Shown: positions 6,131-58,384 of the stretch, one piece after another
How the letters are laid out: every line of letters starts with the position of its first letter
How positions within the stretch are numbered: the first letter of the stretch is position 1
Assembly (NCBI GenBank): GCA_916610825.1
Contig: OU744452.1
Location: 14,550,110-14,614,109 of the forward strand
Reading direction: 5' to 3'
DNA: 64,000 nucleotides
Source of the DNA: Haliclystus octoradiatus
Taxonomy: Eukaryota; Cnidaria; Staurozoa; Stauromedusae; Haliclystidae
Made by a program: the position numbers and the translations under genes
The notes under the pieces: model-generated
What the model saw: only the letters and a program-made list of their open reading frames with translations
The model's database searches: none
What the model was told of the DNA's origin: nothing

Positions 6131-9100
6131 CTATGAAAAGAATAACAACAATGAAGATGGAGTTGATATTGAATTACAATATACACATGCCAATAAAAGT
6201 TCAGGAGTTCATGAACAGTTCATAAACTCTCACGGACTGCGCTCATGAACAGTTCATGAAAATTTGAGGCCATCTAGCGTTCATGAATTGTTCATGAACT
6301 GTTTTCCGCAGGGTTCAAGATGTGGATAACAATAAGTCAAAGTATTATTATTAGTTGAAAATGCATGATCCAAGATTTTAATGTAGGTTCAATCAATCTA
6401 TGAAACTTGAATTTGTTTTCTCACGAAACATAAATAATAACATTGAAAATTCATTTTATAAACAATTTGAAAGTGCCCTTGAGAGTGTAGAGGGTTGTTA
6501 TATGCCTAGTGTGCCCAACAATTCCATAGGTAGTCTATTCACGTATAGGCCTGCCTTGTAATGTAATAAATTGTGAAGCTTATATATAAAATCAGTGGGT
6601 ATCTATGAAACTTGAACATTATTTTTAGATCTGCTGAGCCTTAAATACTTGCAGTACTTCAAGGGCCAATGTGTAGGTTTTTTGGGCAATTGCCATGCAA
6701 TTCATAAGTGGTGCTCACTGCTCACACACACCCCCGGCCTAAATGGAAGTACCCCGAGAAATCTGCAAGTGTTTTATTTTTAAAAACAAATCTGGGGAGT
6801 ATGCTCCTTAGAGTACAGATTCGTTTAAGCAGAAGGTAAGGCAAGCTTTGGCCTTTATAGTGTCTGCCATTGTTTTGACATGAATTACAATTTGGAATGG
6901 CTATTGGCTAAACCAACAAGTTTTTCTTACTCAGTCCAATATCATATTTTGGCAAACGTTCTAAATTTATAAATAAAAAATCGAAGGTGTTGCAAATATT
7001 AAGTATAAATTTCAAAAGTCAGGCAGGGCTACAAAATGTAAAAAATAGAATGAGTGTCAAAAATGAAACATGCTAGAATTACGCATTAATCATTATTGAA
7101 TCTCATTTTATAAATGCTCTGGAAATTTTTATTGAGCATTGTACCAAGAACTGGTGTGGAACAATCCCACTATTACGATAATAATATTACGATTTATATC
7201 AATGAAGTCACATCAACATACTTTCATTGAGTTCATCAGGATGGATACCACCAACAATTGCATGTCGCTCGGCAATCGCACTTTCAGCCTCACATGTTGA
7301 TTCAGAATCACAAGAATGTATGCTAACTCTATCGTCATCTACACCATGCTCATAACAACATTCTGGCATTTTGATTCTTTCAATACTGAGGTTAAGAAGA
7401 TGTGGATCTGAAATAATAATAAACATGTTTATAAAATAGTAAGAAAAATTGCTTTGGATTTCCTCAATTTTAATTAGTCAATCGATTTCCATTCCAGTGC
7501 ATCAATTTCAACACAGACATAGGCTACTGGCGTTTAGATTGACTATCACTACCAATGAAATCTGTTGAAATCGATCTGCAGTGTCGCGGCAGAGATCAAT
7601 AAAGAGTGTGAAAATTCATTGGTCTCAGCAAAAAAAGCCACTCCTCTAGAAATAGAGGAGTGGTACGGGTTACTTTGGTAGGGCGACACCGCCTACGCAA
7701 ATTTTTTTTAACAAACCCATGAAGCGCATCCCTGGCCATCAACGCATGCGTATAATGAACGAACAGTAACTTGTAAACATTTCGGGACAAATTAAAATTT
7801 CGTCTCGACCAGGACTCGAACCAGCATACCCTGCACTCTCTACCCGTACCCTGCAACTTCGCCTCGACTCAATCCGAATGAGCTACGCCAACCGACGACA
7901 ACTCATGAAACAGAAATGAATTTATACTCGACCGAGTGGTTATCAAGTGACTTGACCCTAACCCTAAACGGGTGGATCACGTGATCGGGTGGATCACGCC
8001 TCATGTTCACCCAAATAGACCAAATGCAAACGAGACAGTTAATATATCTTCATGGGTTTGTTAATAAAAATCTGCACCGCCTACATTACTTTAATATCAC
8101 TACCAACACCAAAACCTTGAAAATGCCATGAAAGTGTTGTGAAAACACCATGAGAATGTAAAATTTTTGTTACTTCAAGTCTCACGCCTAAGCGATCATC
8201 AGGCAATCTAATATACTATATATCTATAGGCTGTATGGTTGATTTATTACTGTACTTACAATGTATGTGCAGATATTTTAATGCATCTCGGAATCCTTGA
8301 CGACACATCTCACATAAAACTTCAGTATTAGGAGGAAAGAAAGCTCTTGACATCCGATATAGGTTGTGAGATGTAAACTGAATGCTTGTATTTTTGAAAT
8401 CAAAATGAAATAAATTTGTGTTCGCATCATCAGGACATATATCACTTTCACCACTAAATGGTGAAACAGTTATTGTTGTTCCTTCAAAATGCTGCGGTAG
8501 ATTGTCTGTAAAGCCACCATCCAAGTATGACTGAAAGAAAACAAATTTAAAATGTCATGCATTTTAAAAACATGCGGGTTGTAGGCTAGCCTATAAACCT
8601 AATACGTCAACATTCTGCCGAGTCATTATTATTGTGTTACTAGCAATTAGAGAAGGTCCAATACTGGACCTTGGATGATAAAAATATCTGATCACTATAT
8701 TGAGGTAACCAATTGCAATTCTGAAAGGCATCGTCATTTGTTTGCTTGAGGGCCATCAAAGCATATAACCTGCTGCAACTTGACACAAAGCAATCGAAGA
8801 GCATAATTGTATTACAAAGGGCAATCGAGAATGAATCACTCGATAAATTTTTATTAATAAATCTTAGCATGTGATCTATGTAATATATTTTATCCCTTTT
8901 TAATTTGTAAAACGCATTCCCTGTAATTGTAACTGGGTCACATTGAAGTACTATCATATACGTTTGACCGACACATATGTGTTATATTATTAAGAATGAA
9001 GTATAGATATATATATTCAATGACTAGTCAGGTAGTTCATGTACTCAAGATGGCTGCTTTATTCTGGTTATTCTGATATGCCACATGGCCTTAAACAAGG

Positions 9101-12100
9101 TGGCCTCATAATGAAGTATAAATGAATCATTATGAGGCAATCTAAGATAATCAAGATTTAGCATTAATCTAATCAGATCTAACATTATAACATCTTCCCT
9201 TTTACTATATTAAAAGCTATTATGTAAATCTTGCTGGTTTTACAATCTGTCGTCTATTGCGTGATGTTGTTGTTGGATCTATTGTATTCCCCATGGCTTT
9301 GTTTTCTTTGTTTACTTCTGTTTCAATGCTTTCATTTTCCTCTCGACTAGTAGATTCAGGTTGACTACTTGTATTGTTTTGCATACGCTGTGGGGTTGAA
9401 TTGTAAGTGAATGAACTGTCCTCATGAATGCTTCTATCTGGGTTGAGATGAGTTCTTGTGCGACGAAGTATCTGACCTGATGGCGTCTGAATGATGTAGG
9501 ATTTTGGCGATGCATCATGACGAATTACAGTAGCAGGCAACCATTGTTTACCGTATCTGTGACGTACTGCCTGGCCAGGCCAAAGTACACTTTTTTCTGC
9601 TGCTGATTGTTGGTAGTACCACGAAGCTTGTCCCTGTCGTTGTGCTAATAAGCTGCGAACAGTAGAAGGTTTCCAGACCTTCGGCTGGAGCTGGTGCGGA
9701 TACTTCTGAAGTCTGTTTCGAAGCACCCGGCCTTGCAGAAGTGTTGCTGGTGAGGGTAAACCACCGCCAATTGGAGTGTTACGCATTGCCATCATAGTCG
9801 CTTGCAAGTCTTTGCCGTCATCTAGCATCTTCTTCAGGTGAATCTTCACATTCTGCACGTGACGTTCCGCAGAACCATTAGATTGTGGATAATGCGGACT
9901 AGATGTTATGTGTTGCATATCTAGTGACTTTCTAAATTCTCTAAATTCTTGGCTTCCAAATTGTGGGCCATTATCACTAATCAGATGCTCTGGAATGCCG
10001 TAGTTAGTAAAATTCTTCAATAAAGATTTTGTCACATTTAATGTTTTTGTTTGAGTCAGTGGAATCACACTTGGCCATTTTGAGTAGAGGTCCACAAGAA
10101 GAAGGTAGTGGTTCCCGTCTAACTCGAACAAGTCTGTCGATACTGTTTGGTATGGGTATTCTGGAATCGGATATTGCATGAGAGGTTCATTAGCGTTGGC
10201 ATTTCTATTTCTCTGGCAGATTCCACATGCCTCTACCATGTCCTTAATTTGAGTAGCATAACCAGGCCAATATACAGCTGTTTTCGCCCTTTCCAAACAT
10301 TTAGAAATACCAAAATGTCCACTATGGATTTGTTTTAGAGTTTCCCTAATGAGTGTGGATGGTATCACCAATTGACTGTTTCTAAACAACATGCCTGAGT
10401 AAAGACAGAGATTGTCCCGCTCTGCCCAATAAGGCTTGACTGCAGCCGGTAGTAGGTCTTTTCTAGCAGGCCAGCCATTATTGACAAAATTTAGTATTGC
10501 TTGCAATGTAGCATCATTTTTGGTGGCTTCTATGATGTCATTTCTTTTTTCTTTGGCTACTACATCACATATTCTGATAATTTCTTGTTCCATTGGATCA
10601 TCATATTCGTTATCTAAATATGCTCTTGACAGTGTGTCTGCTAAGATTAGTTCTTTTCCAGGTTTGTATTCGAGATTAATCTCATATTGTAAACATCTTA
10701 ACCGCATTCTTGCCAGGCGAGGAGAGACATCTGAAATAGGCTTGTTCATTATTCCAAGCAAAGGCTTATGATCCGTTTCTATGGTCACAGCCTGGCCAAA
10801 TACGTACTGGTGAAACCTTGTAGCCCCAAATTGTACAGCTAACATTTCTTTCTCGATTTGAGCATAGTTTTTCTGAGCAGTTGTTAATGTGCATGAAGCA
10901 TACTCAATTGGCCGTCCAGCTTGTATCAATACTGCACCTAAACCCGCTTTTGATGCGTCTACAGATAATGTTACTGGTATTTTGGCATTGAAGAGTCCTA
11001 GCGTAGGTGCTGAGGCAATCATTTCTTTAATTGCTGCTAATGACTGTTCTTGATTCTCATCCCATGTGAATTCAACATCTTCTTTTAATAAATCACGCAG
11101 AGATGAAGCCTTTTCTGACAGATTAGGACAAAATTTTGCAACATATGTTACCATGCCGAGAATTCGTTGCAGATCATCTTTGCTTTTTGGTGATGGCATC
11201 TCACAAATCGCCTGTATACGATTTTGATCGATTCTGATTCCATTGCCACTCACTATCTGTCCAAGATATTTGAGCTCTTTCATACCAAAATTACATTTTT
11301 TCTTGTTTAACTTCAGATTGATTTTTCTACATCTCTTCAAAACAGCTTCCAGTCTCTTGTTGTGTTCCTCTTCATCTTTTCCATGGACAAGTATGTCGTC
11401 AATATAGACTTCTACACCTTCAATATCTGAGAAGTGATCAGCAACTGTTCTATGAAATACTTCAGGTGCTGAGCTGACACCATAAGGAAGACGAAGGAAC
11501 CGATATCGTCCAAATGGTGTTCCAAATGTAGTAATATAGCTACTTTTCTCATCTAGGGCCATTTGCATAAACCCTGTAGTAGCATCTAATGAGGAGAAAA
11601 TAGTCGAGTCATGTATCTTTGCAAATATCTCCTCTGCCGTTGGCACTTGGCAATGTTCACGTTTAATTGCTTTGTTCAAGGAAAGTGGGTCTAGGCATAC
11701 TCTTAATGACCCATTAGGTTTGGAAACCACGACAATTGGATTAACCCATTCTGTTGGAGACGTGACTTTTGTTATCATATTGTTTCTTTCCATGTCAGCT
11801 AATGTTGCCTTTAGTTGGTCACGTATACGGAATGGTATACGACGTGCTGCGTGAATGGTGGGTGTGTGATCTTCCTTCAGTTTAATGGAGTGATTGCCTG
11901 GTAGGCGTCCAGTCCCAGTGAATACAGATTCATATACTTCTGGAAGACTTTCACCAACTGAGTTGATTGTACAAACAGGTAATAGACCCATTTCTTGTAA
12001 GCTGTGATAGCCTAGCAATGTGGCATCAGTATTTTTATGGTCTACAATCACAAATTCAAGGACATAATATTTTCCTTGGTGATAAATCGCAAGGTCTGTT

Positions 12101-15100
12101 TTGCCAACTACTTTTATTTTGGCCCCTCCATAGGCTTCCAAAACTTTGTTACATTTGCTAACTTTAGCCTTTGGGTTGCAGCGTCTGAGAGTTTGAATTG
12201 GTAATACATTGCACCCTGCTCCTGTATCTGCTTTTGTGATGATATGAAATTTACTATCAGCTAGCTCTAATTTTACAGTCAATTGGTCTGATTTTGATGA
12301 TTTGCTGTCCCTTACATTGAATATAATAATACTATCTACGTCTTGTGATTGTATGTCATTGATATTTCCAGACTCTTGTTTCTCTTTGGTCTTTGTAATT
12401 ACTCCTTTAGATCTGCAGACAGTAGCAAAGTGGTTAGGCTTGTCACATGTGAGGCATATTTTTCCAAATGCAGGACATTTACGAGGTATATGACTTCCTC
12501 CACAATATTTACAGTTATCAATCCTTCCTTTTGGCTGTTTTGATTTCATGAGATTTATTTGACTGCTTTCAGTTTGGAGTTCATTCCCTATTCTTATGGC
12601 TCCTTCTTTATGGCGACATATCTGTATGGCTTTTTCTAAATTGAGATTCGTTGTGTATAGCAGCTCTGCTCTGATACTGTCAGAATATATTCCTAACACA
12701 ACCTGATCTTTAAGTAAACGATCTGTAAGTGTTTCTCCATCTTGTGATTGGCATATAGGGTAATTGCAATATGGCAGCTGATTTCTTAAAGCAGTTAGGA
12801 AGTTATCAAAAGGCTCATCTGCTTTTTGTTTCCTTGAAAAGAATTTATGGCTTTCATAGCTGTCATTTTTCTTTGGTGAATAATATTTGTTGAATTTATC
12901 CAGCACTTCATCAAGATCATTCTTATTATTTAATTCTAAACTTCTGTAAATAGTTCTGCCCTCTTGTCCTAATAATGTGAGAAGTATTGCAACTTTTACT
13001 TCACCTGATTTGGACTTCTTGTCAGTGGCCAGAAGATAAAACTTGAAACCTTCCTCCCAATCATTCCAGCTTTGGGCCAAGTTACCACAATTGTCTGCTC
13101 TAAATGGCTTTGGTGGTTTGAAAGTATTCTCTTCTGACATAATGTAGACTTGGATTACTTAGTCTGACACCATGTTATATTATTAAGAATGAAGTATAGA
13201 TATATATATTCAATGACTAGTCAGGTAGTTCATGTACTCAAGATGGCTGCTTTATTCTGGTTATTCTGATATGCCACATGGCCTTAAACAAGGTGGCCTC
13301 ATAATGAAGTATAAATGAATCATTATGAGGCAATCTAAGATAATCAAGATTTAGCATTAATCTAATCAGATCTAACATTATAACAATATGGACAACACAT
13401 TTGTAATTGTGCACAAGAAAATAGAATTGTGGCATATACGCAGCTGTAAGCTTAAGTATTTCAATTGCTATCTTCGAAAATGCACAAGTTTGCAAATTAA
13501 TATCTCAAAATTTTCTTTAATTTTTCTCCAAAATATTATTGGGGAGGTGTCACAACCCCACATCCTCCCAGGAATTATTATTGTGAAAATATTATCTTAA
13601 TAGTAATGGAATGGAGAAAATTATATTGTAAAAGATATACATGATGTTTCAACGTAAAGCAAAGGAAAATAAATGTATAGATTTCTATAAAATAAATTTA
13701 TAGACTTACCACACCACGAAATTTTGGCGGAATAATTCCAGAATAAAACGGTACAAATGCAGAACAAATTAGAGCCTACAACAATACAAAGTACAAACAT
13801 AGTTCAAGAACATTTGGTACCTCGGCATTTAGCCTGTTTGCAGACTTTATGTAGATCAATGGTTTGTTCATATACGGAGATCTGACAACAAACACAAAAT
13901 AAATCTAAATTGAAAGTTGACTGAATGAAATTTGATGAAGACAGCCACAAGATGTAATTCAAAACCAAACAGCTATAACAACAATCAACAATACTAAATT
14001 GTAAGATACAATAATTCTAACATTTTAAACAAAAAACGTAGCTTACATCTATTAAATCTTTGTTTGATGTAAATTCACTAACAATGAGATTGGACATGTC
14101 ACTAACTTTCGTTAACGAAACATGAAGTTTTCCAGAAGCATGAAGATACGCATTTTCAGGTAGAAATCGATTAAATGTTTTACGAATATAATCTGATGGA
14201 TCAAAGTCCGTACTTAATGGTCCAAATGTAGGAGATCTAGCTTTTTCAGCTAATTTCAAGACAAACCGAACACAATCTTCCGTATCATGATTGAACAAAA
14301 TTGAACAAGATGATAAAGCCCCAGCTGAAGCGCCACCGAAATTACTTATATTTGACAATAAACCAGGTGCATGTTGTCTTAAACATCCTATAACTCCGAC
14401 ATGATAGATTGCTAGAAACCCACAGCCGGAGAAAGCAATGTTTAGTTTTTCATTTATTGGAGACATCTTGAAATCTCCAAACCAGCTAAGAGGTAGAAAA
14501 TTTTCAAAAACAATAAGACACCACAACAAACTTTGAAAACTTGGACCTTTACAATAGTATTCAAGTTGTACTCTTCTTCTTCTTATAAATAAACAGACAA
14601 AACAGCTTTGTTATTCTTGATGTGACTTCTCCAAAAAAGAGACCAAGAAACTGCGTCACAGAGGAACTCTTTTTGAAGGTTGTGGAAGTCTTTAAAATTC
14701 CAAACAATATATTATATTAAAATCTTTAAATTATCTTTGATAGCAGAGAACATATGTTAAAATAAGACTTGAATAGTATTCAGTGGATATAAGTGTTACA
14801 AATTGAAGGCCATCGTCGACCGGCGAAAAATCAAAAATCGTTAGGAAAGTTTGAAAGCATGTTTCGTGTTTACGTTTTTGATGATGAGATACCATTCCCC
14901 CTGCACACCCCTGTTTAAGCCAATCGCAATAACTCAAATAGATCATGTGACAAAGCTCAATAACGCCGACAATGAAAAGATCAACATTTTTGAAGTGCAT
15001 GACTTTTTCTTTGACCACGTATTACATAATTTATGATTTATTCCTATCTTATCCTAAAGTTTATCCATGAGGAAATATAATAATAACTCAACCACCAGGA

Positions 15101-18100
15101 AATCATGTAAACTGAGGGTAAAATTAGAAAGAGGATAAAACCTCAAATCTCGCTCAAATGAATAACCATTCATTGTTTTCAACATGTCCGAAAATCGATC
15201 GAGATATCTCAAAATATTTTACATATTTTGTAGCCTGCTCGCAGACTCACTGTCAAAATGTAAACTTGGTAGAATCAGTTACTCAGTAGACTACTTCAGC
15301 TACTGCTCTAGTTTACATTGTGACAGTGAGTCTGAGAGCAGGCTACATAGTATAGTTTGTAGCTAAATGAATTTAGAAAAGCACACGCAAAAACTATGTT
15401 CTGTAAAAACTATTTGATACTCAATTGATAATACAGTAATATATAATGTGATTCAAAATTACCTCTACAAGTTCTTCCTTGGATTCAAACTGCGATACGA
15501 TAACATTCTCTAATTTCGGCATTCCAAATAAAGAATGTTGTGTTACCTGTAGCGAACGCGAGGATGACTATAAATTGAAACCGCCGTTGAATGTCGACTG
15601 GATTACTATTTTATTAGAATTCACTAAACAATGAAAAATACAAGGAATTAATACTATAAGCTGCACATATAACTAACAAGGTATTACATACAACAATGAA
15701 TTAAAGTCTTACATCGGTGAGCTTTTCTCCAACGGTAGTTGATTGAGATTGATATCGATTGTTACTGTTTCTTTGCTATATTTGTAACGGCATCGACGAC
15801 TACATTTCACTATATCTAAAGATTACAATATTACATGCAGCTTTTATAACAATTTTGAGACTAAACTATTTGCTTACTTTACATTTTATAATAATACAAT
15901 TGTTACGCTATGGGAAATTTGTGCTTTCAATGCATATATTTTTACAATTATATGACTTACAAATCATTTATTATTGTTTTCATTTTGCTACGGTCATCTT
16001 GAATTTTGCTGTATCATATTATCATGACGTAATCTATTCACGTGGTTAAATAAGTCTAAATATAAGTTTATAATGTCATTCTTTTTATAGTTCTTTTTCG
16101 AAGTATTTTATTATTTACAATTCAAAACACACCCCGCCATGGAAACCGTTGTTTTCATCATTTCATCAATATTGTTCCTTTGGCAGCAAAAGACATAACT
16201 TTGTAACGGGACGTTTGTATTCGCCATTCTGCGTTTTGACAATTGCGCTTCTTACAAGTCCATCTTTTCCTGGAAACGTCTCTGTAACTTTACCCATACT
16301 CCATTTGCCTCTTGGTATATTTCTCTCCATAAGTAACACAACATCTCCAACTTTCATCGACCTAGATTCTTTAATCCATTTCTTTCGACCAATGATAGTT
16401 GGTACATAATCTACTATCCACTTTTTCCAAAACAGATTGATCGTGCTTTGAACAAATTCGTATCTCTTTGATGGTGAAGGCGAGTCATCGAATGGTCCTT
16501 GTGGCACTGCTGCACTTGCTCTTCCTAGTAATATATGATTTGGTGTCAAATACGTCCCATCGTTGGGATCAGATGACATTGGTGATAATGGTCTTGAATT
16601 AACTAAATTCTCTATTTCACAAAGGTATGTGCATAACTCTTCATGCGTTAGCACTTTGTTGCCAATACTCGACTTCATGGACTTTTTTACCGACTTTACC
16701 ATTGATTCGACCACTCCTCCGTGATGGGGTGCCTCTGGGGTGTTGAATCTCCATACCATTTTATTTTCTGCCGCAAAATCCATCAGCTCCTTTTTGTTCC
16801 ATCCCTCAATCATCGTTTTCAATTCCTTTTCTGCGCCAACAAAATTGCTACCATTGTCGGATACTATCAGTGATGGCTGTCCTCTTCTGGAATAGAATCG
16901 ACGAAGTACTTGGAGGAACGCCTGTGTTGACATGTCTGAAGATGCTTCGATGTGTATAGCCCTTGTGCTGAGACATGTGAAAATCGCCCCATACCTCTTC
17001 TGTCTTCTTGTACGAATTCCCATTTTGACAATGATCGGTCCAAAATAATCAACAGCAACATTGTAAAATGGCGGCGTAAATGGCATAATTCTGAATTCTG
17101 GTAAATCAGCCATCTTCTGCAGTTGCACTTGTTCTCTCAGACGTCTACATGTTATGCATTGGTTGACGATGGACTTCGAAAGTGTTCTACCATTGACAAT
17201 CCAAAAGTACAGCCTGGAATCAGCCAGTGTTCGTTCAACTCCACAGTGGTTGGTCTTGTTGTGATGGTCTTTCATGATTAATCTGCTAATCCAGTTACGA
17301 CGAGGCAAGAGAATTGGATGCTTCTGATCATACGGTAAGCAATTTGCATTTTCCAATCGTCCTCCAACTCTGATTAACCCTTTTTCGTCAACAAATGGTG
17401 TCAGTTGCTCGTAGTTGCCATTCTCTAGTTGTTGAAACATCTCTGCTTGAACAGTCTTCAGTAGGTAGTCTTCTGCATTTGCCAATTCATCTGAGCTCAG
17501 AGGTCCTTTTGAAGCATTCTTGTTCTTTAAACTTTTGCAAAACCTCTGTACATATGCTGTTACCCTTTTCAGTCTTTTCCAGTTACTGAACTTGTTGACA
17601 TCTATAATGCTTTCTTCTTGTATAATTACTGTACATGTGATGACCTTTTTTCTTTTCTCGATGTCTTGATCTTGGTCTTCAAGTCTTGTGGGCTGCATAT
17701 CATCAGGCCATTGATCTTTAGGTTTCGTTAGGAAATCTGGTCCTTTCAGCCATCTCCCTTCCAATTCATTTGTTGTTATGCCTCTTGAGCCATCATCTGC
17801 ACTGTTTTCTTCTGAAGGGCAATGTCTCCAATCTGATGGTATTGAATCACTTTGTATTTCTCCCACTCTTACTGCCACGAATGGTTTGTATTGTCTTGAT
17901 TGACTCTTTATCCATGAAAGGACTATACTGCTGTCACTCCAGTAGGTTGTTTGTAAAATATCTAGTCTTGTTTCTTTTCTGATGGTTTTGGCCAATCTTG
18001 TCCCCAGAACAGCTGCTTGCAATTCAAGTCTTGGTATTGTTAATTGTTTAAGTGGTGCAACTCTTGTCTTTGCTGCAATGAATCTGACATCTATCTTCTT

Positions 18101-21100
18101 TGTTGTTCTGTCTTCACTTCTAAGGTAGGCACAGGTAGAGAACGCTTCTTGGCTTGCATCACAAAATACATGTAATTCCATGATTGCTGAATTTGATTCT
18201 TCTGGTGTTAAGCATCTTGGTATTTTGACATTTTCTAATTTCTCTATGTCCAGCAGCAGTTGTTCCCAGATCTTCTGGTGTTCTTCTGAGACAACATCAT
18301 CCCATTTGTAGCCTGTGCTCCAAAGTACTTGCATCAACATTTTGCCTCTCACCAACATAGCTGCTGCAATACCAATAGGATCAAAGATCTTTGCTATTTG
18401 GCTCAGAATCTCCCTCTTGGTCCAGTTGCCTTCCTTCTTCGATTGTTTAATTCTGAATGTCATGGTGTCATCTCTTGAATTCCAAATTGTTCCAAGGATC
18501 TTTTCTTGTTGTTGGTCAATTTCTTTTTCTTCCTGTCCTTCACTTTGTTCACTCTTCAATTCAGGGCAGTTTGTGACCCATTCCTTTAGTGGAAATCCTC
18601 CTCTTTGTAACACTTCTTCAATGTCACTGGCCAGTTGTGGTACATCTTCTGTAGCTTGAACTGAGTCGCATATGTCGTCTACGTATGTATTCCTTTGGAT
18701 GGTTTCAGCTGCCTTTGGAAATTCTCCTTTGCTGTCTTCTGCTGTTTTCCAAAGTACAGTTTGGGCCATGGCTGGTGCTGGCTTGTCTCCAAATGGCACT
18801 CTCAACATCATGTAGACATCAGGTGGCTTTGTGGTGTCCAAGTTCCTCCAAAGGTATCGATGCATGTGTTGATCTTTTTCAGGTAACTTTATTTGATTGA
18901 ACATTTTCGATATATCATTGCACAATGCCCATTTGTTTTCTCTAAATCTCAAGATGATGCCAAATAATGAATTGAGTAAATCTGGTCCTTTGTATAAGGC
19001 ATCATTGAGGCTTGTTTCTTGGTATGTTGCCGATGAGTCAAAAACAATTCTCAGTGGTGTTGATGGCTTGTCGTGACGAAGGACACCATGGTGTGGGATG
19101 TAGTTAATCGGCCCGTTGTGTGAATCAATTTCCTTTTGCGTCAATTTTCTTGAGAATCCAAGTTCTTCGTTCTTCATTATTTGTGCGTCATAGTTGTTTG
19201 CTAGTTTGTTGTCTTTCATCAGTTTCTTTTCAGTTGAGATCAATCTTCTATATGCCAAGTCGTAGTTGTTAGGCAAAGTAGTTGGAGGCTGTTTCCATGG
19301 TAACCCAATTTGATACCTATCATCAAGCTTTTTACAACTTTCCTTCAGTAGAACTGCAGCGTGCTTGTCATCTGGAGAACCAATCAATGAAGGGTCGCAG
19401 TTGCACGGTGTGGACTTCACTCCAAAGCTCTCAGTCTCCCAAAATGCCTTTATGTTGATGCTTTCTTCAGCCAATGAAACCGTGTTAGTTGATGCAGTGG
19501 AACATTGGATGTCATCATCATCTGTCTTCTTGTTGGCACTTCCTAGCAGTACCCATCCCAATGGGGTCATCATTGCAACTGGCATCCCTGGTTGACCTCT
19601 TCTCATTTCACCGACCAGTAGGTGTGCTTGATCCACGCCAAGTAGTACATCAATAGGGCCAGGTGAGTATGACAGGACAACGTCTTCCAGGTGCTGGTAG
19701 TTCTTTATGTTATCTTTTTGCATGTGCCCAACATCTGCACAGATTTTGTCGAGTTCAACAGCTGTCACTTTATGTTTTTTGCCATCCCCATTGATTGCTT
19801 CGATGATAAAATCAATTTTTCTTGACATCTGCCTTTTCTGATCACCACTAACCACTGACAAGTTTATGAAAGTTTCTTTTCCTTCCAGGCCAAGGGACTC
19901 AGCAAAACCTTTCCTAACCAATGAAATCTGCGAACCACTATCGATCAGAAGATTTGCCTTTCTTGTGATACCATTGTTGCCATTGACTTTCACTTGCAAT
20001 ACCGGTAATGCATTCTTATTCTGGGTGTTTGTTGTGGCATGTGCAGCTGCTGATTCCTTGTGTAGGGCTTCATGGTGAGTCTTGCTGCATTGCTCTTTAC
20101 CACATGTTCTTTTGCCTCTACAATCTCTGGCTGAGTGTCCATACTTTAAGCAACTGAAACATGCTCTACCTTCTTTGACCATCTGCCATCTGTCATCTAC
20201 ATTTGCTTCTAAGAATTGTGGACAGTCAGTAATTACATGCTCCTCTTTACATACCATACATACTTTCTTTTTTTGAGGTTTCTCGTTTGATTGAGTGACG
20301 TTTGTTGCTGCTGATTGCTTTGGTCTTTGAGGCTCTAGAGAATATGCTTGTGATTTGACAATGGATTCCTTCTCCAACCAATCGTCTAAGCCATGAACTG
20401 TTTGTAGCGCTCGACCTTCTCTGACGTCTCTACCCCATCTCTCGCGGTCTTCATCTGTCAGCTTTCTGACTATGCTTTTCAGCAGACCTGTTGATTCTAA
20501 ATCTGCTGTACAACCAGCATTCTTTAACTGTGTGATGATGTCTTGTACTGTGGTTGCAAATTTCAGGAAGCTATAGGCGTCTCCCTTTCGTATCGGCTTC
20601 AGTTCGTCTATCTGCTTGAAACATACATCTGTCAATTGGTCATTTCTTCCGTAGGTGGTATCGAGCTTTTTCCAGGCCATGTCATAATTCTCTATATTGC
20701 AAATCAGCTGATGTGGAATCTTTGCCAGTCTGCCTCTCAGGATGTGCAGTTTTGTGTTTTTATCTGTAGCATCTGGGTCTACCAATGCCTTGAATGCAGT
20801 TTTAAATTGTCTGTAATCCTTTAGAACACCAGAAAAATGTGGCAGTGTTAATTTGTAACGAATTGGTGCTGTTACACTTTTCTCTTGCTTCGTTGATTTA
20901 GCCGACTCTAAATTGTTCGTAGTAGCCGACTCTACTTTGTTCGTTGGTCTTTCAATGACATCATCTTGTTCGTCTTGCGTTTGAATGACGTCATCTGTTC
21001 TTTGATTGTCCGCTTCAGTGGGATTGGCTACATCTTCATCTTCTTCCGTCTGATCGGTTGATTGTTCGGCTGTCATTCCATTGTTTTCTTGTTCGATGTT

Positions 21101-22511
21101 TGTGTCTATCAATTCTTTTGTTTTTGTAGTTTCGTGGCGAGCGGTCTTGTTTTCTTTGACTGTCTGCACGTGCGCTCGTACTTCGAAACGAACATCACAA
21201 ACGTTATCGAACAGTTCGTCTAGCCAATTATCATCATCTAATTCTGCTGTCATCATGTACATTTCGTGGCATTCTTCGGCTCTTTCATAATGTTGGTCTA
21301 ATAGCGTCAGGCTGTTCATCATCTCTTCTATATCGGTTGATCCTTTGCTGATCAACTTGATTGCCTTGTTCGCCATTCTTGTTACTCGTGATTTTGCAAG
21401 TGTTCGTTGTTGAACCATCTGTTTTATTGTCAACGCTTTACCATTCATCGTTGTTAACGTTGATCCTGTTGCTGTTTGTTCATCTGTACTATTCTCTGTG
21501 GAACTCATCATCGCGACTCTGCTTCGTCAGTCGAACGATTGAATTTTTGTAGCGAACGCGAGGATGACTATAAATTGAAACCGCCGTTGAATGTCGACTG
21601 GATTACTATTTTATTAGAATTCACTAAACAATGAAAAATACAAGGAATTAATACTATAAGCTGCACATATAACTAACAAGGTATTACATACAACAATGAA
21701 TTAAAGTCTTACATCGGTGAGCTTTTCTCCAACGGTAGTTGATTGAGATTGATATCGATTGTTACTGTTTCTTTGCTATATTTGTAACGGCATCGACGAC
21801 TACATTTCACTATATCTAAAGATTACAATATTACATGCAGCTTTTATAACAATTTTGAGACTAAACTATTTGCTTACTTTACATTTTATAATAATACAAT
21901 TGTTACGCTATGGGAAATTTGTGCTTTCAATGCATATATTTTTACAATTATATGACTTACAAATCATTTATTATTGTTTTCATTTTGCTACGGTCATCTT
22001 GAATTTTGCTGTATCATATTATCATGACGTAATCTATTCACGTGGTTAAATAAGTCTAAATATAAGTTTATAATGTCATTCTTTTTATAGTTCTTTTTCG
22101 AAGTATTTTATTATTTACAATTCAAAACATTACCTTCGTTAAAGAAACATGGAGCTTTCCATTGACAAGTTTATGCACATTATCAGGTAAAATAGATAAC
22201 AGACCAGCTCTTAATCTACCATACATATCAAACGTTGGCATAAATGGGGCAGTGAACATGCCTAAGTTAAATGGGACTAAATTTCGAGTGTATTTTGCTA
22301 CAGATAATACTCGTCTCGCACAATCAGCAAGACAACATCCTGATAACGCAGATGCAGCGGCCAAAGCACCAGCAGAACAACCTCCAAAATTATTCATTGA
22401 TGCTAATAAATCAGGAGCTTTTTCACTAAATGCTTGTACAACTCCAATATGGTACATTCCTAGGTATCCACATCCAGCAAATGTCATGTTACATATTGGA
22501 TTATTAGCCAT
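5989..22511 (-). CDS. PNPLA2-like: Patatin-like phospholipase / triglyceride lipase gene (gene span)
   Basis: Minus-strand, multi-exon gene of the PNPLA2 (ATGL/brummer) family, which hydrolyses triacylglycerol at lipid droplets with a Ser-Asp dyad. Shared exons are 13775-13710, 8530-8260, 7407-7222 and 6130-5989; each has GT-AG borders and the phases agree. Two alternative 5' coding exons each supply a glycine-rich oxyanion loop and a GxSxG motif: 14466-14047, or 22511-22134 plus 15546-15463. The shared part carries [20 protein letters not shown] with the catalytic Asp, and [13 protein letters not shown], all typical of PNPLA2/3. Introns hold a Gypsy element, a MULE-like MITE and a fold-back. 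The distal 5' exon is split by a BEL/Pao element. The 3' end is unresolved (see 1520-1806). Subfamily assignment is from remembered motifs. Confidence 0.85.
6191..6314. repeat. CATGAA-palindrome repeat
   Basis: It runs from 'caataaaagttcaggagttc' to 'ttttccgcagggtt' with several TTCATGAA palindromes and the shared 'ggccat...gcgttcatgaa' phrase. It lies in a lipase intron. Confidence 0.75.
6315..7221. other. Lipase intron sequence
   Basis: Intron between the exons at 7222-7407 and 5989-6130. I see no clear repeat boundary, exon or RNA. Confidence 0.45.
7222..7407 (-). CDS. PNPLA2-like: Lipase shared exon 4
   Basis: 186 bp between an acceptor (TTATTTCAG, ending 7408) and the donor GTATGT (7221-7216). 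It reads [18 protein letters not shown] and then an acidic Ser/Glu-rich linker ending HPDELNES. One base is carried in and one out, matching its neighbours. It would link the patatin core to the C-terminal region. Confidence 0.75.
7543..7696 (+). repeat. SINE 3' half, interrupted by a MITE
   Basis: The 3' half of the SINE runs from 'actatcactaccaatgaaatc' to 'gcgacaccgcctac'. The SINE tail resumes at 8076 ('accgcctacattac') after the 379-bp element at 7697-8075, so that element landed inside an existing SINE. Confidence 0.75.
7697..8075. mobile_element. MULE-like MITE with tRNA-like and telomere-like cargo
   Basis: The ends GCAAATTTTTTTTAACAAAC... and ...GTTTGTTAATAAAAATCTGC are inverted (identical over AACAAACCCATGAAG inward). 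They are flanked by a 9-bp direct repeat, ACCGCCTAC (7688-7696, 8076-8084). A 9-bp duplication with TIRs points to the Mutator-like group. On the minus strand a tRNA-like segment (about 7905-7800) has an A-box-like TGGCGTAGCTCATTCGGATT and a B-box-like GGTTCGAGTCC, but stems do not pair cleanly and the spacing is long. CCCTAACCCTAAAC (about 7966-7979) matches the animal telomere unit. A relative lies at 26181-26615. Confidence 0.75.
8260..8530 (-). CDS. PNPLA2-like: Lipase shared exon 3, catalytic Asp
   Basis: 271 bp between an acceptor (TTTCTTTCAG, ending 8531) and the donor GTAAGT (8259-8254). It opens [12 protein letters not shown], where the DGG aspartate is the second member of the patatin Ser-Asp dyad. 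[32 protein letters not shown] and a [12 protein letters not shown] stretch follow. This order is strongly characteristic of PNPLA2/3. It enters in phase 0 and leaves one base. Confidence 0.9.
8531..8979. other. Lipase intron next to a Gypsy insertion
   Basis: Unremarkable AT-rich intron sequence. It ends in ATATG (8975-8979), the target copy for the Gypsy element that follows. Confidence 0.5.
8980..9192 (-). repeat. Gypsy 3' LTR
   Basis: 213 bp, TG...CA, identical by eye to 13173-13385. The purine tract at 9193-9203 identifies it as the 3' LTR. Confidence 0.95.
9220..13140 (-). CDS. Gypsy gag-pol polyprotein, 1306 residues
   Basis: Copies the element's RNA to DNA and inserts it. Domains in order: gag-like region (1 to about 200); two zinc knuckles, [13 protein letters not shown] and [14 protein letters not shown] (about 210-243); aspartic protease ADTGAGC (about 307); reverse transcriptase with YIDDILVHG (about 580); RNase [14 protein letters not shown] (about 727); integrase HHCC zinc finger from HSGHFGI (about 938); DDE core with TDLFELDG (about 1003), SDNGPQF (about 1057) and the Glu in GSAERH (about 1090); then a C-terminal region with a WLPATVI stretch. 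Gag and pol share one frame with no frameshift. I see no premature stop or missing catalytic residue, so it could be active. Confidence 0.95.
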   Translation of the reverse strand: MSEENTFKPPKPFRADNCGNLAQSWNDWEEGFKFYLLATDKKSKSGEVKVAILLTLLGQEGRTIYRSLELNNKNDLDEVLDKFNKYYSPKKNDSYESHKFFSRKQKADEPFDNFLTALRNQLPYCNYPICQSQDGETLTDRLLKDQVVLGIYSDSIRAELLYTTNLNLEKAIQICRHKEGAIRIGNELQTESSQINLMKSKQPKGRIDNCKYCGGSHIPRKCPAFGKICLTCDKPNHFATVCRSKGVITKTKEKQESGNINDIQSQDVDSIIIFNVRDSKSSKSDQLTVKLELADSKFHIITKADTGAGCNVLPIQTLRRCNPKAKVSKCNKVLEAYGGAKIKVVGKTDLAIYHQGKYYVLEFVIVDHKNTDATLLGYHSLQEMGLLPVCTINSVGESLPEVYESVFTGTGRLPGNHSIKLKEDHTPTIHAARRIPFRIRDQLKATLADMERNNMITKVTSPTEWVNPIVVVSKPNGSLRVCLDPLSLNKAIKREHCQVPTAEEIFAKIHDSTIFSSLDATTGFMQMALDEKSSYITTFGTPFGRYRFLRLPYGVSSAPEVFHRTVADHFSDIEGVEVYIDDILVHGKDEEEHNKRLEAVLKRCRKINLKLNKKKCNFGMKELKYLGQIVSGNGIRIDQNRIQAICEMPSPKSKDDLQRILGMVTYVAKFCPNLSEKASSLRDLLKEDVEFTWDENQEQSLAAIKEMIASAPTLGLFNAKIPVTLSVDASKAGLGAVLIQAGRPIEYASCTLTTAQKNYAQIEKEMLAVQFGATRFHQYVFGQAVTIETDHKPLLGIMNKPISDVSPRLARMRLRCLQYEINLEYKPGKELILADTLSRAYLDNEYDDPMEQEIIRICDVVAKEKRNDIIEATKNDATLQAILNFVNNGWPARKDLLPAAVKPYWAERDNLCLYSGMLFRNSQLVIPSTLIRETLKQIHSGHFGISKCLERAKTAVYWPGYATQIKDMVEACGICQRNRNANANEPLMQYPIPEYPYQTVSTDLFELDGNHYLLLVDLYSKWPSVIPLTQTKTLNVTKSLLKNFTNYGIPEHLISDNGPQFGSQEFREFRKSLDMQHITSSPHYPQSNGSAERHVQNVKIHLKKMLDDGKDLQATMMAMRNTPIGGGLPSPATLLQGRVLRNRLQKYPHQLQPKVWKPSTVRSLLAQRQGQASWYYQQSAAEKSVLWPGQAVRHRYGKQWLPATVIRHDASPKSYIIQTPSGQILRRTRTHLNPDRSIHEDSSFTYNSTPQRMQNNTSSQPESTSREENESIETEVNKENKAMGNTIDPTTTSRNRRQIVKPARFT
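13173..13385 (-). repeat. Gypsy 5' LTR
   Basis: 213 bp, and next to the primer-binding site, so it would drive minus-strand transcription of the element. Confidence 0.95.
13710..13775 (-). CDS. PNPLA2-like: Lipase shared exon 2
   Basis: A 66-bp micro-exon between an acceptor (TTGTTGTAG, ending 13776) and the donor GTAAGT (13709-13704). It encodes 22 residues, [11 protein letters not shown]...PPKFRGV, the conserved patatin segment between GxSxG and DGG. Both ends are phase 0, so it can join either alternative 5' exon. Confidence 0.9.
14047..14466 (-). CDS. PNPLA2-like: Lipase proximal 5' exon (version A)
   Basis: The start ATG (14466-14464) opens [17 protein letters not shown]; upstream in-frame codons lack a convincing ATG. 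The 140 codons carry the oxyanion loop [13 protein letters not shown], the nucleophile motif GGASAGAL (GxSxG) and [18 protein letters not shown], and end in phase 0 at the donor GTAAGC (14046-14041). Unlike version B it has no interruption at the LTKV position. It is the likely functional 5' exon on this haplotype whether or not the distal one is expressed. Confidence 0.85.
14467..15228. other. Sequence between lipase alternative exons
   Basis: This would hold the 5' UTR or promoter of exon version A, but I cannot place either. I see no RNA gene or clear repeat here. Confidence 0.4.
15229..15347. repeat. Fold-back MITE, arms about 39 bp
   Basis: The segment starts TGTAGCCTGCTCGCAGACTC and ends with its near reverse complement GAGTCTGAGAGCAGGCTACA. 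The arms differ at a few positions. It has no coding content. Confidence 0.8.
15463..15546 (-). CDS. PNPLA2-like: Lipase distal 5' exon (version B), 3' part
   Basis: 28 codons beginning GTAACACAACATTC (VTQHS...) and running through [17 protein letters not shown] to the donor GTAATT (15462-15457), phase 0. It aligns with the [15 protein letters not shown] end of version A. This part is separated from 22134-22511 by the BEL/Pao element. At its 5' side the last LTR bases plus the first G of the target duplication form CTACAG|GTAAC, a usable 3' splice site. Confidence 0.8.
15548..16129 (-). repeat. BEL/Pao 3' LTR
   Basis: 582 bp, exactly 6000 bp from its partner and identical by eye. Its gene-strand end, GTTCGCTACA, gives the AG of the proposed 3' splice site when joined to the G of the target duplication. 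Confidence 0.95.
16166..21511 (-). CDS. BEL/Pao gag-pol polyprotein, 1781 residues
   Basis: Domains in order: an acidic Thr/Glu-rich gag with coiled-coil character (1 to about 400); a Cys/His region including [13 protein letters not shown] and [14 protein letters not shown] (about 419-480); protease with [12 protein letters not shown] (about 520); Pao-type reverse transcriptase with YVDDICDS (about 940); RNase H with [12 protein letters not shown] (about 1117); integrase zinc finger [14 protein letters not shown]...CITC (about 1415); DDE core AVDYFGP (about 1487), VSDNGSNF (about 1553) and [10 protein letters not shown] (about 1600); and the C-terminal [19 protein letters not shown] domain typical of BEL/Pao. 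The order protease-RT-RNase H-integrase with this tail separates it from Gypsy. No stops or frameshifts are seen, and no env-like gene. Confidence 0.95.
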   Translation of the reverse strand: MMSSTENSTDEQTATGSTLTTMNGKALTIKQMVQQRTLAKSRVTRMANKAIKLISKGSTDIEEMMNSLTLLDQHYERAEECHEMYMMTAELDDDNWLDELFDNVCDVRFEVRAHVQTVKENKTARHETTKTKELIDTNIEQENNGMTAEQSTDQTEEDEDVANPTEADNQRTDDVIQTQDEQDDVIERPTNKVESATTNNLESAKSTKQEKSVTAPIRYKLTLPHFSGVLKDYRQFKTAFKALVDPDATDKNTKLHILRGRLAKIPHQLICNIENYDMAWKKLDTTYGRNDQLTDVCFKQIDELKPIRKGDAYSFLKFATTVQDIITQLKNAGCTADLESTGLLKSIVRKLTDEDRERWGRDVREGRALQTVHGLDDWLEKESIVKSQAYSLEPQRPKQSAATNVTQSNEKPQKKKVCMVCKEEHVITDCPQFLEANVDDRWQMVKEGRACFSCLKYGHSARDCRGKRTCGKEQCSKTHHEALHKESAAAHATTNTQNKNALPVLQVKVNGNNGITRKANLLIDSGSQISLVRKGFAESLGLEGKETFINLSVVSGDQKRQMSRKIDFIIEAINGDGKKHKVTAVELDKICADVGHMQKDNIKNYQHLEDVVLSYSPGPIDVLLGVDQAHLLVGEMRRGQPGMPVAMMTPLGWVLLGSANKKTDDDDIQCSTASTNTVSLAEESINIKAFWETESFGVKSTPCNCDPSLIGSPDDKHAAVLLKESCKKLDDRYQIGLPWKQPPTTLPNNYDLAYRRLISTEKKLMKDNKLANNYDAQIMKNEELGFSRKLTQKEIDSHNGPINYIPHHGVLRHDKPSTPLRIVFDSSATYQETSLNDALYKGPDLLNSLFGIILRFRENKWALCNDISKMFNQIKLPEKDQHMHRYLWRNLDTTKPPDVYMMLRVPFGDKPAPAMAQTVLWKTAEDSKGEFPKAAETIQRNTYVDDICDSVQATEDVPQLASDIEEVLQRGGFPLKEWVTNCPELKSEQSEGQEEKEIDQQQEKILGTIWNSRDDTMTFRIKQSKKEGNWTKREILSQIAKIFDPIGIAAAMLVRGKMLMQVLWSTGYKWDDVVSEEHQKIWEQLLLDIEKLENVKIPRCLTPEESNSAIMELHVFCDASQEAFSTCAYLRSEDRTTKKIDVRFIAAKTRVAPLKQLTIPRLELQAAVLGTRLAKTIRKETRLDILQTTYWSDSSIVLSWIKSQSRQYKPFVAVRVGEIQSDSIPSDWRHCPSEENSADDGSRGITTNELEGRWLKGPDFLTKPKDQWPDDMQPTRLEDQDQDIEKRKKVITCTVIIQEESIIDVNKFSNWKRLKRVTAYVQRFCKSLKNKNASKGPLSSDELANAEDYLLKTVQAEMFQQLENGNYEQLTPFVDEKGLIRVGGRLENANCLPYDQKHPILLPRRNWISRLIMKDHHNKTNHCGVERTLADSRLYFWIVNGRTLSKSIVNQCITCRRLREQVQLQKMADLPEFRIMPFTPPFYNVAVDYFGPIIVKMGIRTRRQKRYGAIFTCLSTRAIHIEASSDMSTQAFLQVLRRFYSRRGQPSLIVSDNGSNFVGAEKELKTMIEGWNKKELMDFAAENKMVWRFNTPEAPHHGGVVESMVKSVKKSMKSSIGNKVLTHEELCTYLCEIENLVNSRPLSPMSSDPNDGTYLTPNHILLGRASAAVPQGPFDDSPSPSKRYEFVQSTINLFWKKWIVDYVPTIIGRKKWIKESRSMKVGDVVLLMERNIPRGKWSMGKVTETFPGKDGLVRSAIVKTQNGEYKRPVTKLCLLLPKEQY
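21548..22129 (-). repeat. BEL/Pao 5' LTR
   Basis: 582 bp upstream of the gag-pol start on the minus strand. It directly abuts the broken lipase codon: exon sequence ACGAAGGTAA is followed at once by TGTTTTG of the LTR. Confidence 0.95.
22134..22511 (-). CDS. PNPLA2-like: Lipase distal 5' exon (version B), 5' part
   Basis: The start ATG (22511-22509) opens [20 protein letters not shown]; the upstream in-frame TTG is not a likely start. It contains the oxyanion loop [13 protein letters not shown] and the nucleophile motif GGCSAGAL. The 126 codons end at LTK, exactly where the BEL/Pao element begins. Without splicing the frame runs three codons into the LTR and stops. With donor AAG|GTAATG (22134/22133) it would join 15546 in phase 0 and restore the ancestral exon exactly. 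Compared with version A it has a longer Met/Phe-rich segment ([17 protein letters not shown]), so the two may differ in substrate or location; that is inference. Confidence 0.85.
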
Positions 22512-23051
22512 TTTTGGAGGATTTAGATTCAATGTAGTAATGATTGAGTATATAGACTTAGGAAAAGTAGGATATTTCAGATGAATATATCCTATTGGTA
22601 AATTAGTTGTTAGACTATATGGCGAGTTGATGAACTCTGCACTATCGTCTGATAAAGATGATCATGCCGTTCTTGAATCTTCTCCACCCACTATGTGTAA
22701 AATTGTGCAATGTGCTGTTCATATTAAAATCTATATTGTCAGTAAACTCATTATTTTCACGTTACGTCTTGGAATGCAAATAGTACGTAATATAGAGACG
22801 TGATTCTTATATTATTATTATCAATTGCTTTGAAGTGATGTTTTTATTTTGATACTATTCTTGGTGCTTCTTGCCACTGAGGCGGTGTTGTTTAGAATCT
22901 TTTGAATATATATTGAAATCGTACGGATATAAAGGTCACCCATCCGATAAAATACGTCATTGAAGAGTAGCGTTGAATAATTGAAGTACATACTTTTTAG
23001 CAAATCTTGTTTGGGACGGCAAAATCTATTTCGTGAGTGACTTATTTGTGA
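22512..23051. promoter_or_regulatory. Head-to-head promoter region, lipase exon B / ACTR10
   Basis: About 540 bp separate the minus-strand ATG (22511) from the first plus-strand ATG of the ACTR10 frame (23052). Two divergent starts with no other gene between them imply a shared or back-to-back promoter. I see no reliable TATA box or CpG-rich core. Confidence 0.45.
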
Positions 23052-38200: not shown

Positions 38201-41200
38201 TTGACAATCGAGACCTATCTGCCATGAAATCTGTTGAAATTGATCTGCAGTGTCGCGGCTGAGATCAACAAAGAGCGTTTAAAATCATTGCTCTCAGCGA
38301 AAAAAGCCACTCATCTAGAAATAGAGGAGTGATACGGGTGCCTTCGGTAGGGCAACACCGTCTACATTACTTATTACCCTGACTTGCATTAAATTCCTGA
38401 ACATTTTTGTTGTAAACTCAATCATCTTTAATTGTTTCCTATTGAAGTTTGTTTCATTCATGATAATTTGTATGATTTCATTTGTATTTGTAGCGTGGTA
38501 AATTGGAAACATTCCGTCAAGTGAAAGCAAGCGACCGTATTCCGCCACCACGCAATCTCTTTCTCCGTTATAATTACATGATAGCAACGCATGTTGCCTT
38601 TGATGGAATTATGAATCTGTTAATTGCATTGAATATGATACCGATTGCTTTTGAATTGTCTGCTGATGAAGATGCACCTTACTTAGAACATTTAAAGATT
38701 ATCAATTATGTCTATTGCGTTGTTTACATTCTTGAAGCATTGATAAAGGTAATGCATATATTACATCCCCTGCAAAAATAAGTTCATGAACCAGAACATG
38801 AAGTGTTCATAAACTCTCTGTTACTGGCTTACTGTTCATGAAGTGTTCACGAACTGTTTATAAAGTTTATGAATTGTTGACTAAATAATGAAGTATGAAC
38901 TGTAATATTCAGTAAATAAACAGTTTCAGTTACAGACTCCATCTTTAATAATCTGATATTCCCATGTGACTTGTTGCACAATGAGGCTATTCCATAATTA
39001 CAACAGAGAGGCTATGTAATAAAGTAAACATGAACATCACATCTCTCCTTATCTATAAAGTAATGTGCTATGTTAGATGATTAAGTAAAATACATTATGA
39101 TAATGTATTTTATTTATTTGACTATTGAGAGTAATCATCTAACCAGGTAGGCATCCGTGTTTGTCGCGCTGGTCGCTGCCGAGGTACAAAGAGTTCATCA
39201 TCTGTTACTACTCTCTCATTTTCTTCTGACTCTGCAGCTATTGTCGAACTGTCGCTTTCTTCATTGTTGAAGTTATCGAGTTGAACGTCAGTGTTGTGAA
39301 TAGGAATGTCAAAATCATCGCTGCTGCTGCTGCTGATATGTGGTGACATGTTGATCTGCTGTGAAGATTGTTGTTGATGAGGTGCCATGTATGACTTCAC
39401 TTGCGATGAAGTTCGCATAAACTCCTTCTTTTGATTTTCACGCTCATTCACAATTATACTGTTTCCTTTGACAGTGGAGATTACATAGGGAACATTTTTC
39501 CAGCGTGGGGTGAATTTATCACGATGTCTTCTTGTGTCTGCAATTAACACTGGATCCCCTTGCTTTAGAGTATGAGGGCGAGCATGGTTGCGGTGATCAG
39601 CATGTGATTTGATCAAAATCTTCTTGTTCCAATCAGCGTTGATAACATCTCTATTAGCTTCAGGTGGCGTGTTTGTTGGCAGTTTGTCCTTAATGGGTCG
39701 ATTGAACATTAACGTGGCAGGAGCAACACCAGTAGTAGCATGAGGAGTTGTACGATAGGCAAGTAAAAAGTTCTCTAAAACAATACGCCAGTCTTGATGT
39801 TCAGCAATGGCAGCTTGAATTGTTTTTTTTAAGTTCCGATTAAAACGCTCAACTTCTCCGTTTGCTTCAGGGTGATAAGGGGTCACTTTACGATGGGTAA
39901 CTCCAAATTCTGTCATCAGAGCTTTAAATATATTATTTCTTCGAAACTGTGGACCATTATCAGTGACAATGGCATCTGGTGCCCCATATCTGCAGAACAG
40001 CTTTCGAAGTTTCTTTGTAATTTCAGTTGTGTCTATTTTGTGCAAAATTTCAACCTCTGGGTATCGGCTGTAGTAATCAACACAGACAAGGAGATGCTCT
40101 CCAGTGGGAAATGGTCCGCATAAATCACATCCAATTAGTAACCAAGCTCCTTTGGGAATTTTAGTCATTGTCAGTGGCGGTTTTCTTTCTTCTGGTGCTA
40201 CAACCTGGCAGCCATGGCATCGCATAATAAACTCGTCAACATCACGGTTCATGTGTGGCCACCACACTTTTGCTCGTAGACGTTGCTTGGTGCGGACAAT
40301 TCCTTGATGACCTTCATGTGCAACTGTGAGAGTTTCTTTTGTAAGGGAAGAAGGCATAACAATCTTGTTTTTGAACATAAGTGTGTTGTTGACAACACTG
40401 AGATCATGTCTAGATGTGTAGAATGTGTTTGGGAAATCATCTTTTGTGACATGATTTGTTTCAAGACAGTGTTTGACTTTTTGAATATCAACATCTTTTG
40501 CTTGTTCTGAGGCGATGCGAGTTGCAGAAATGAAGATGGGAGTTGATGTAGTATGAACAAAATTGATATATTCTTCGGCCATTCGATGAGTCTTTTCAGG
40601 AGCTGGAACTGGATTTGAACGAGATAAGAAATCTGCACTGTTGAACTTTCCTGGCTCGTATTGAACAGTAAAATTGTATGGCATGAGCCTGGTGATCCAT
40701 CTTTCGATGCGTGGCGGAGAACGGGTATTGCGAGATGCAAAGATATGAACCAATGGTTTGTGATCTGTTTTCACAGTGAATTTCATACCATAAAGATACA
40801 TTTGAAATCTTTCAATGGCGAATAAGATTGCTAAACTTTCTCTTTCTATTTGACTGAAGCGCATTTCCACATGACTAAGAGATCTGCTGGCATAGCTGAT
40901 AGGCTTGATTGTTCCATCAGGTTGTTTTTGTGTGAGAACTGCACCCAATCCAACTGGTGAGGCATCTGTGACAACTTCTGTGTATGAGTTGGGATTGAAG
41001 TAAGCAAGAGTTTCACTAGAAAGCAGCATCTCTTTTAGATGATTGAATGAATGTTGTTGCTTTGATTTCCAATGCCATGGTATGTCTCTTTTCAGCAAAT
41101 TGCGCAAGGGTTCTGTGATAGTAGCAAAATTGGGCAAGAATTTTGAGCAGTAGGTTATCATTCCTAAAAATGATCTCAGTTCCTTCACATTTGTTGGTGC

Positions 41201-57829: not shown

Positions 57830-58384
57830 CTGAGTTTGTCAAGGGACTCACGCAATTTGGGCTGCTTGATGATCTGAAACCGAAGAAGAAAGATTCAAAT
57901 CACTGTTTCTACTCCCAAAAGGGAACGATCAATTTGAGCCAACTGTCATTTACATATTATCTATTCTGCAACCATGTTATTCATCTCCTTCTCCTGTATC
58001 TACAAAACGTACATTGGAGGAGTCTGCAGTATACCATCGAGACAAGTTGCATATGTTTACGAAGACACACCGGCAGCAGAATCTGAGCCAATGGATGTTG
58101 ACACTTCTGAATCAGAACAAAAAACGGTAACTGTAGAAGCCACATCAGCAGGACTATTGGGATGGCTGACAGGAACACGGCACGTCCCACGGAACAAAAC
58201 ATCTCAGAGCATCATGGTCAGTTTCAATCATGACTGTACAGGAGATACGGCCCATACAATATGCCATCCACTGGTCAGCGCCTGTGAAAAGCCCATATCG
58301 TTGCAACTACAGCATATGAAAAACATACAATCAATTCAAAGATATTTTTGTGACAGCATATTTCAATGCACAGGCATTTGGTAG
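57830..58384 (+). pseudogene. HECT-like accessory gene remnant in the right arm
   Basis: Two overlapping frames. The first reads AEFVKGLTQFGLLDDLKPKK. The second ends with LGWLTGTRHVPRN, SFNHDCTGDTAHTICHP and SACEKPISLQL, then an aromatic run to a stop. The TG...P, HTIC/SACxxP and C-terminal pattern resembles the HECT C-lobe of transposon-borne E3-like proteins; the Cys of SACEKP would be near the catalytic position. Spacing is imperfect, so this is a tentative reading. The left arm has lost the corresponding piece. Confidence 0.45.

Follow-up and report, generated by a model that had tools for sequence, protein, structure and literature searches.

Can a retrotransposon that lands in a coding exon turn into an intron by means of the bases that it duplicates on insertion? 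The origin of introns is an open question, and their births are rarely seen. The window analyzed here is a stretch of 64,000 nucleotides from the staurozoan Haliclystus octoradiatus (contig OU744452.1, positions 14,550,110 to 14,614,109). It contains a BEL/Pao element within a first coding exon of a lipase gene (Table 1). The five duplicated bases start with G-GT, and the element is therefore predicted to be removable exactly by splicing. An initial annotation had marked the range 15463–22511, which spans exon 1A between its start codon and its native donor, as the site of a candidate newborn intron. Should splicing occur, the locus would show in an animal that an exact phase-0 intron can be made by an autonomous LTR element, rather than by an introner or a DNA transposon, by way of the element's own target duplication. 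Without splicing, it would be a clean test of how far splice-site quality beyond GT and AG counts in intron birth.

Table 1. Features of the lipase locus in window coordinates. A slash marks a splice junction.
Feature	Position	Strand	Basis or remark
Exon 1A, upstream part, ATG at 22511	22134..22511	-	Patatin domain
Exon 1A, downstream part, 84 nt	15463..15546	-	native donor GAG/GTAATT comes next
Exon 1B, alternative first coding exon, uninterrupted paralogue of 1A	14047..14466	-	open frame, sequence
Exon 2, shared	13710..13775	-	
Exon 3, shared, DGG motif	8260..8530	-	
Exon 4, shared, includes stop	7208..7407	-	
BEL/Pao retrotransposon, 6,582 bp	15548..22129	-	LTR identity, target duplication, Pfam domains
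5' LTR, begins TGTTTTGAATTG	21548..22129	-	582/582 bp identical with 3' LTR
3' LTR, ends ...CGTTCGCTACA	15548..16129	-	AATAAA at LTR positions 18, 158, 515
Gag-pol-type open frame, single, 1,786 codons	16166..21526	-	stop-to-stop frame list
Target copy 1, GGTAA, upstream edge	22130..22134	-	contains predicted donor
Target copy 2, GGTAA, downstream edge	15543..15547	-	first G finishes predicted acceptor
Rival acceptor TTGTTTAG/T in 3' LTR	15623..15624	-	77 nt upstream of exact acceptor
Predicted new intron of 6,587 nt in phase 0	15547..22133	-	frame and junction; splicing predicted

If spliced exactly, exon 1A (22511–22134 plus 15546–15463) and exons 2–4 form an open frame of 332 residues, in which Pfam finds a Patatin domain (64.6 bits). 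This domain, the serine motifs GCSAG and GASAG, and the DGG motif in the translations identify the product as an ATGL/PNPLA2-type lipase. Exon 1B can be joined to the same downstream exons in the same phase. Each of the two first exons has its own serine motif, and one downstream exon set is common to both. Their identity is 38%. When the whole genome was searched with the N-terminal half of isoform A, the four matches obtained were exons of this locus, and no redundant second ATGL-type gene was found elsewhere. There was no near-identical protein among the best 120 of 996 matches. A tree of 23 N-terminal sequences places 1B with Hydra, Clytia, and two unnamed proteins (99/96). Exon 1A is found on the opposite side, among sequences from vertebrates, a springtail, and an annelid (95/95), and has the longest end branch. 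This topology suggests that the duplication is likely old and that 1A likely evolves faster; its long branch may reflect relaxed constraint. Right after the insertion site (15519–15546), isoform A has eight additional codons (TQHSLFGM). These residues are missing from exon 1B and from all 25 aligned homologues, and a search for a relative carrying them gave one hit among 47 candidates, which does not have them.

The element and the lipase gene are on the same (minus) strand, that is, the element is in sense orientation. A Pfam search of its frame, run as five separate pieces, gave matches above the cut-off for Peptidase_A17 (60.4 and 107.5 bits), RVT_1 (39 bits), Integrase_H2C2 (36.5 bits), and DUF5641 (105.9 bits). 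DUF1759, Asp_protease_2, and rve were marginally under the cut-off (30.8 versus 32.6 for rve), and the pol frame gave no separate RNase H match at E≤0.001. A Pao-type pol (Peptidase_A17, reverse transcriptase, and integrase), LTRs of the TG...CA type, and a short target duplication are all present. The BEL/Pao identity, sense orientation, and exonic target given in the initial annotation are thus borne out by the domains, the strand, and the open frame on both sides. Of 86 candidate family members in the 262-Mb genome, 40 were scored, and all 40 match 353 LTR bases at approximately 100%. Exact 5-bp duplications flank 20 of the 21 copies that were fetched, and the remaining copy was settled via another fetched edge. 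The insertion is likely recent, because the two LTRs are identical and many near-identical copies exist.

The element splits the lipase codons ACG AAG and GTA ACA, and GGTAA is duplicated on the gene strand, both as first read. With this duplication, one edge carries GT and the other AG, and a splice that joins 22134 to 15546 (donor AAG/GTAATG, acceptor CGCTACAG/GTAACA) would restore the frame. It was also correctly predicted that this splice, if it takes place, removes the element plus one target copy and leaves a phase-0 junction. The general rule proposed from this case, that any TG...CA element with a target starting G-GT would do the same, holds but was stated too narrowly. The 5-bp targets that allow exact excision are GGTNN, AGGTN, NAGGT, and NNAGG. 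The rule is valid in either orientation of the element, because TG...CA is identical on both strands. In a sample of 10,543 coding positions from this genome, exact GT-AG excision of such an element with a 5-bp duplication is possible at 262 (130 GGTNN, 21 AGGTN, 22 NAGGT, and 89 NNAGG). A donor score of at least 7.12 is reached as well at 16 positions, of which two are GGTNN targets, the insertion site being one of these. The resulting fractions of 2.5% and 0.15% are not a significance test, because the site had been picked by its reader as special-looking (post hoc).

The quality of the two splice sites was scored with a small model trained on 42 donors and 37 acceptors of introns that had been inferred in this genome. 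The window contributed 20 donors and 16 acceptors, with exon ends inferred via open frames and not from RNA. A further 22 chaperonin introns were derived from PF00118 exon pairs via frame and profile continuity; this set is biased towards the window-derived score, because it was chosen partly with that score. One window acceptor (leave-one-out score −14.4) was dropped as dubious before the 37 were counted. The predicted donor scores 7.13, above 14 of the 42 native donors, and is 10th of the 455 GTs from the exon 1A start codon to exon 2. Its 9-mer, AAGGTAATG, is also found at two inferred exon ends (36542 and 38746) of another gene in the window. The predicted acceptor, scored over 20 bases, is below all 37 native acceptors and 43rd of the 639 AGs in the pre-mRNA. 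Over 15, 12, 8, and 4 bases it scores above 6, 16, 11, and 37 of the 37, respectively. Its weakness is placed in the T-poor stretch beyond −12, because the shorter spans score better. Trained on the smaller window-only set, the model puts it above 6 of 16 native acceptors and 11th of the 639 AGs. The splice sites had been called perfect, with a pyrimidine-rich stretch ahead of the acceptor. GT and AG are indeed in place and the donor is ordinary, but the 20-base acceptor score does not sustain this description. From −20 to −5, 12 of 16 bases are pyrimidines (native mean 72%), but only 5 of 16 are T (native mean 60%). Another AG, at 15567, precedes the exact acceptor by 21 nt. The branch-point motif yUnAy has only one match in the last 60 nt before the exact acceptor, and the distance between its A and the splice is 25 nt. 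No donor in the region scores higher than the one at the end of the 84-nt downstream exon piece.

Both LTRs bring competing sites. The rival acceptor at 15623 has a twin in the 5' LTR at 21623. They score 9.6 and outrank 25 of the 37 native acceptors over 20 bases, and 12 of them over 12 bases. The top-scoring AGs of the pre-mRNA are located in the LTRs, where better-scoring donors are found too. The AATAAA motifs (Table 1) mean that both LTRs hold potential sense poly(A) signals. The predicted outcomes differ accordingly in frame. An unspliced transcript would stop after LTKVMF, three codons past LTK. Use of the acceptor at 15623 would give a stop immediately after LTK, and that at 15660 a stop 30 codons further on. 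The only in-frame rivals nearby are 15567 (+7 residues) and 15489 (−19 residues), and the protein stays open with both. Excision guided by inverted repeats ('SOS splicing') was considered and set aside for repeats of at least 60 nt, none of which is present within 15000–22700.

Among the copies of the family, an exact-excision target is present in two of the 20 with paired duplications, namely the lipase copy and one at C4:31.03. The latter has the target GGTTT and a donor score of −1.2, and lies antisense approximately 99 bp outside an inferred exon. No family preference for GGT targets was seen, with two of the 20 paired duplications beginning GGT. Two pattern searches for exact edges each found two. 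Many family copies acting as introns, as in introners, were not found, since exact-excision targets are confined to these 2/20. Four of 21 copies, the lipase copy included, lie across an open frame of at least 200 codons. Of the other three, one lies antisense in another apparent retroelement, one in a simple repeat of the AAT type, and one in an ankyrin-repeat frame. The ankyrin-repeat copy (L053, L054; G000 C7:5.43 Mb) has the target GATAC, and its host frame has in-frame stops; a frame downstream, named by reading, is presumably kinase-like. As these hosts are a retroelement, a repeat, and a stop-bearing frame, the family offers no second natural test.

Several related systems are known. 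The splice junctions of the 412 element in Drosophila vermilion are reportedly inexact. In vermilion, an exonic 412 retrotransposon is reported to be spliced out of the pre-mRNA (Fridell et al. 1990, cited in PMC2586383). In both cases a full LTR element lies in a coding exon; its removal as an intron was shown experimentally there, whereas here exact removal is predicted and the element is of the BEL/Pao type. ONSEN, a Ty1/copia element of Arabidopsis, provides a second precedent (PMC12112155). There, cDNA reads show the excision of a recent full-length exonic copy as a new intron, in a gene given as AT5G32415 in the results and AT4G34215 in the discussion. Besides this one intronization, seven insertions led to partial exonization with disrupted frames. 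The recent full-length LTR element in an exon is common to both cases, but ONSEN is a copia element in a plant and its RNA was observed. Introners bring one splice site with the insertion and borrow the other from the target duplication (PMC9860276). The lipase element would likewise borrow a splice site from its target duplication. Introners are, however, mostly non-autonomous and DNA-transposon-like and make many introns, whereas the lipase element is a single autonomous-looking LTR copy. Two DM412 insertions, in Strn-Mlck and plexus, led to truncated transcripts (PMC13322080). One lies within an exon and the other between duplicated parts of an exon. The LTR element in or beside a coding exon resembles the present case, but the truncated and chimeric transcripts differ from the clean splicing predicted here. 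The view that such an event is unusual for an intact LTR element is therefore only partly upheld, with the DM412 insertions on its side and 412 in vermilion and ONSEN against it. Spliced exonic LTR elements are already known; the combination of an autonomous BEL/Pao element with exact, phase-0 removal would be new in the open-licence literature, if splicing occurs. We do not claim that the rule itself is absent from print.

Was the site an exon when the element arrived? The frame is open on either side of the insertion, exon 1B crosses the matching position uninterrupted in one frame, and 25 of 25 aligned homologues are colinear on either side of the site in protein alignments, which do not reveal introns. 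Had the element landed in a small intron that already existed, nothing new would have been made. The isoform A stretch after the site is indeed odd, with eight residues beyond all 25 homologues, and the target is donor-like by itself (AAG/GTAAC). However, an intron of 37 or 39 nt would have to use acceptors with scores of −1.8 and −5.1, lower than those of every native one. The 37-nt intron also breaks the frame, a 57-nt intron would remove the conserved residues VIVSQ, and exon 1B is continuous across the position. A small pre-existing intron is rejected on acceptor scores and frame, and we regard this origin as highly improbable. What remains to be weighed is how the exon 1A transcripts fare. 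We favor a leaky proto-intron over a finished intron, with exact splicing restoring the frame in only part of the transcripts; we hold this tentatively, at somewhat short of an even chance. The BEL/Pao insertion into exon 1A, with GGTAA duplicated, has set GT at one edge and AG at the other, and with its ordinary donor the spliceosome likely reaches the exact acceptor in a share of cases. The remaining transcripts would likely be lost to the stronger LTR acceptors (15623 and 21623), to LTR donors, or to LTR poly(A) signals. In the meantime, exon 1B likely maintains lipase activity; through it the gene could stay functional even if the element were never spliced. The exact edges, the 332-residue frame, a donor above 14 of 42, and an acceptor above 16 of 37 over 12 bases count for the proto-intron, as do the strong native donor downstream, the in-frame rivals that keep the protein open, and the rarity of such sites (16/10,543). 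The precedents of 412 in vermilion and of ONSEN in an exon would point the same way by analogy. Against it stand an acceptor that all 37 native ones exceed over 20 bases, its rank of 43rd among 639 AGs, the LTR AGs at the top, and the long branch of exon 1A; the sense poly(A) signals of the LTRs could also end the transcript first, as is reported for two DM412 insertions (PMC13322080). In addition, the allele with the insertion may be rare or heterozygous.

Plain disruption ranks next and is a real possibility, although we rate it below the proto-intron. Exon 1A transcripts would then end in the LTR, stop at LTKVMF*, or use LTR acceptors with immediate stops; isoform A would be lost, and the fitting edges would be a coincidence of target sequence. 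The early read-through stop, the immediate stop after the 15623 acceptor, the better-scoring LTR acceptors and donors, and AATAAA at three LTR places all agree with this reading, as do the redundancy via exon 1B and the truncated transcripts of the two DM412 cases (PMC13322080). Exonic copies need not be spliceable, as the ankyrin-repeat copy has no usable target; the frame of that copy, however, already bears stops. So good an exact-excision target, at 16 of 10,543 coding positions, also sits poorly with coincidence, though the site was reader-picked. An efficient newborn intron, with the element removed exactly from nearly all exon 1A transcripts and the allele neutral, perhaps common or fixed, appears unlikely and is placed below both. 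The exact edges, the frame, the ordinary donor, and an acceptor whose last four bases score above 37 of 37 would suit it, and the insertion is borne by a single-copy gene whose frame is otherwise open. The weak upstream part of the acceptor and the stronger LTR acceptors speak against it, and the AG at 15567 leaves little room for a branch point.

The broadest claim would be that this is a working intron near its birth, an autonomous LTR element removed exactly by a donor and an acceptor that straddle its target duplication. Approximately 1 in 40 exonic LTR insertions in this genome would then be candidate introns, and LTR elements would steadily supply animal genomes with introns that are exact and preserve the frame, a source so far overlooked. 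We consider the claim as a whole doubtful. The rule is simple enough that any genome with long reads and RNA data would serve for a test, in which the share of surviving exonic LTR insertions that have exact-excision targets is compared with the 2.5% expected here.

Other repeats are present in the window. At position 58122, GTAACTGTAGAAGCCA is present without an LTR, and the same sequence flanks the same LTR at C5:14.85, L060, and L062; this is an apparent empty site within another repeated sequence. Additional long Ty3-like open frames occur at 39122–43360 and 61282–63999. One Ty3-like frame is inside an intron of the gene at 27–51 kb, which by reading alone we take to be sodium/hydrogen-exchanger-like. 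Intron 2 of the lipase gene (8980–13385, minus strand) contains a Ty3/gypsy-type element in sense orientation, with a frame at 9220–13158, LTRs identical over 213 nt, and the target duplication CATAT. The lipase gene has thus apparently received two recent sense LTR elements.
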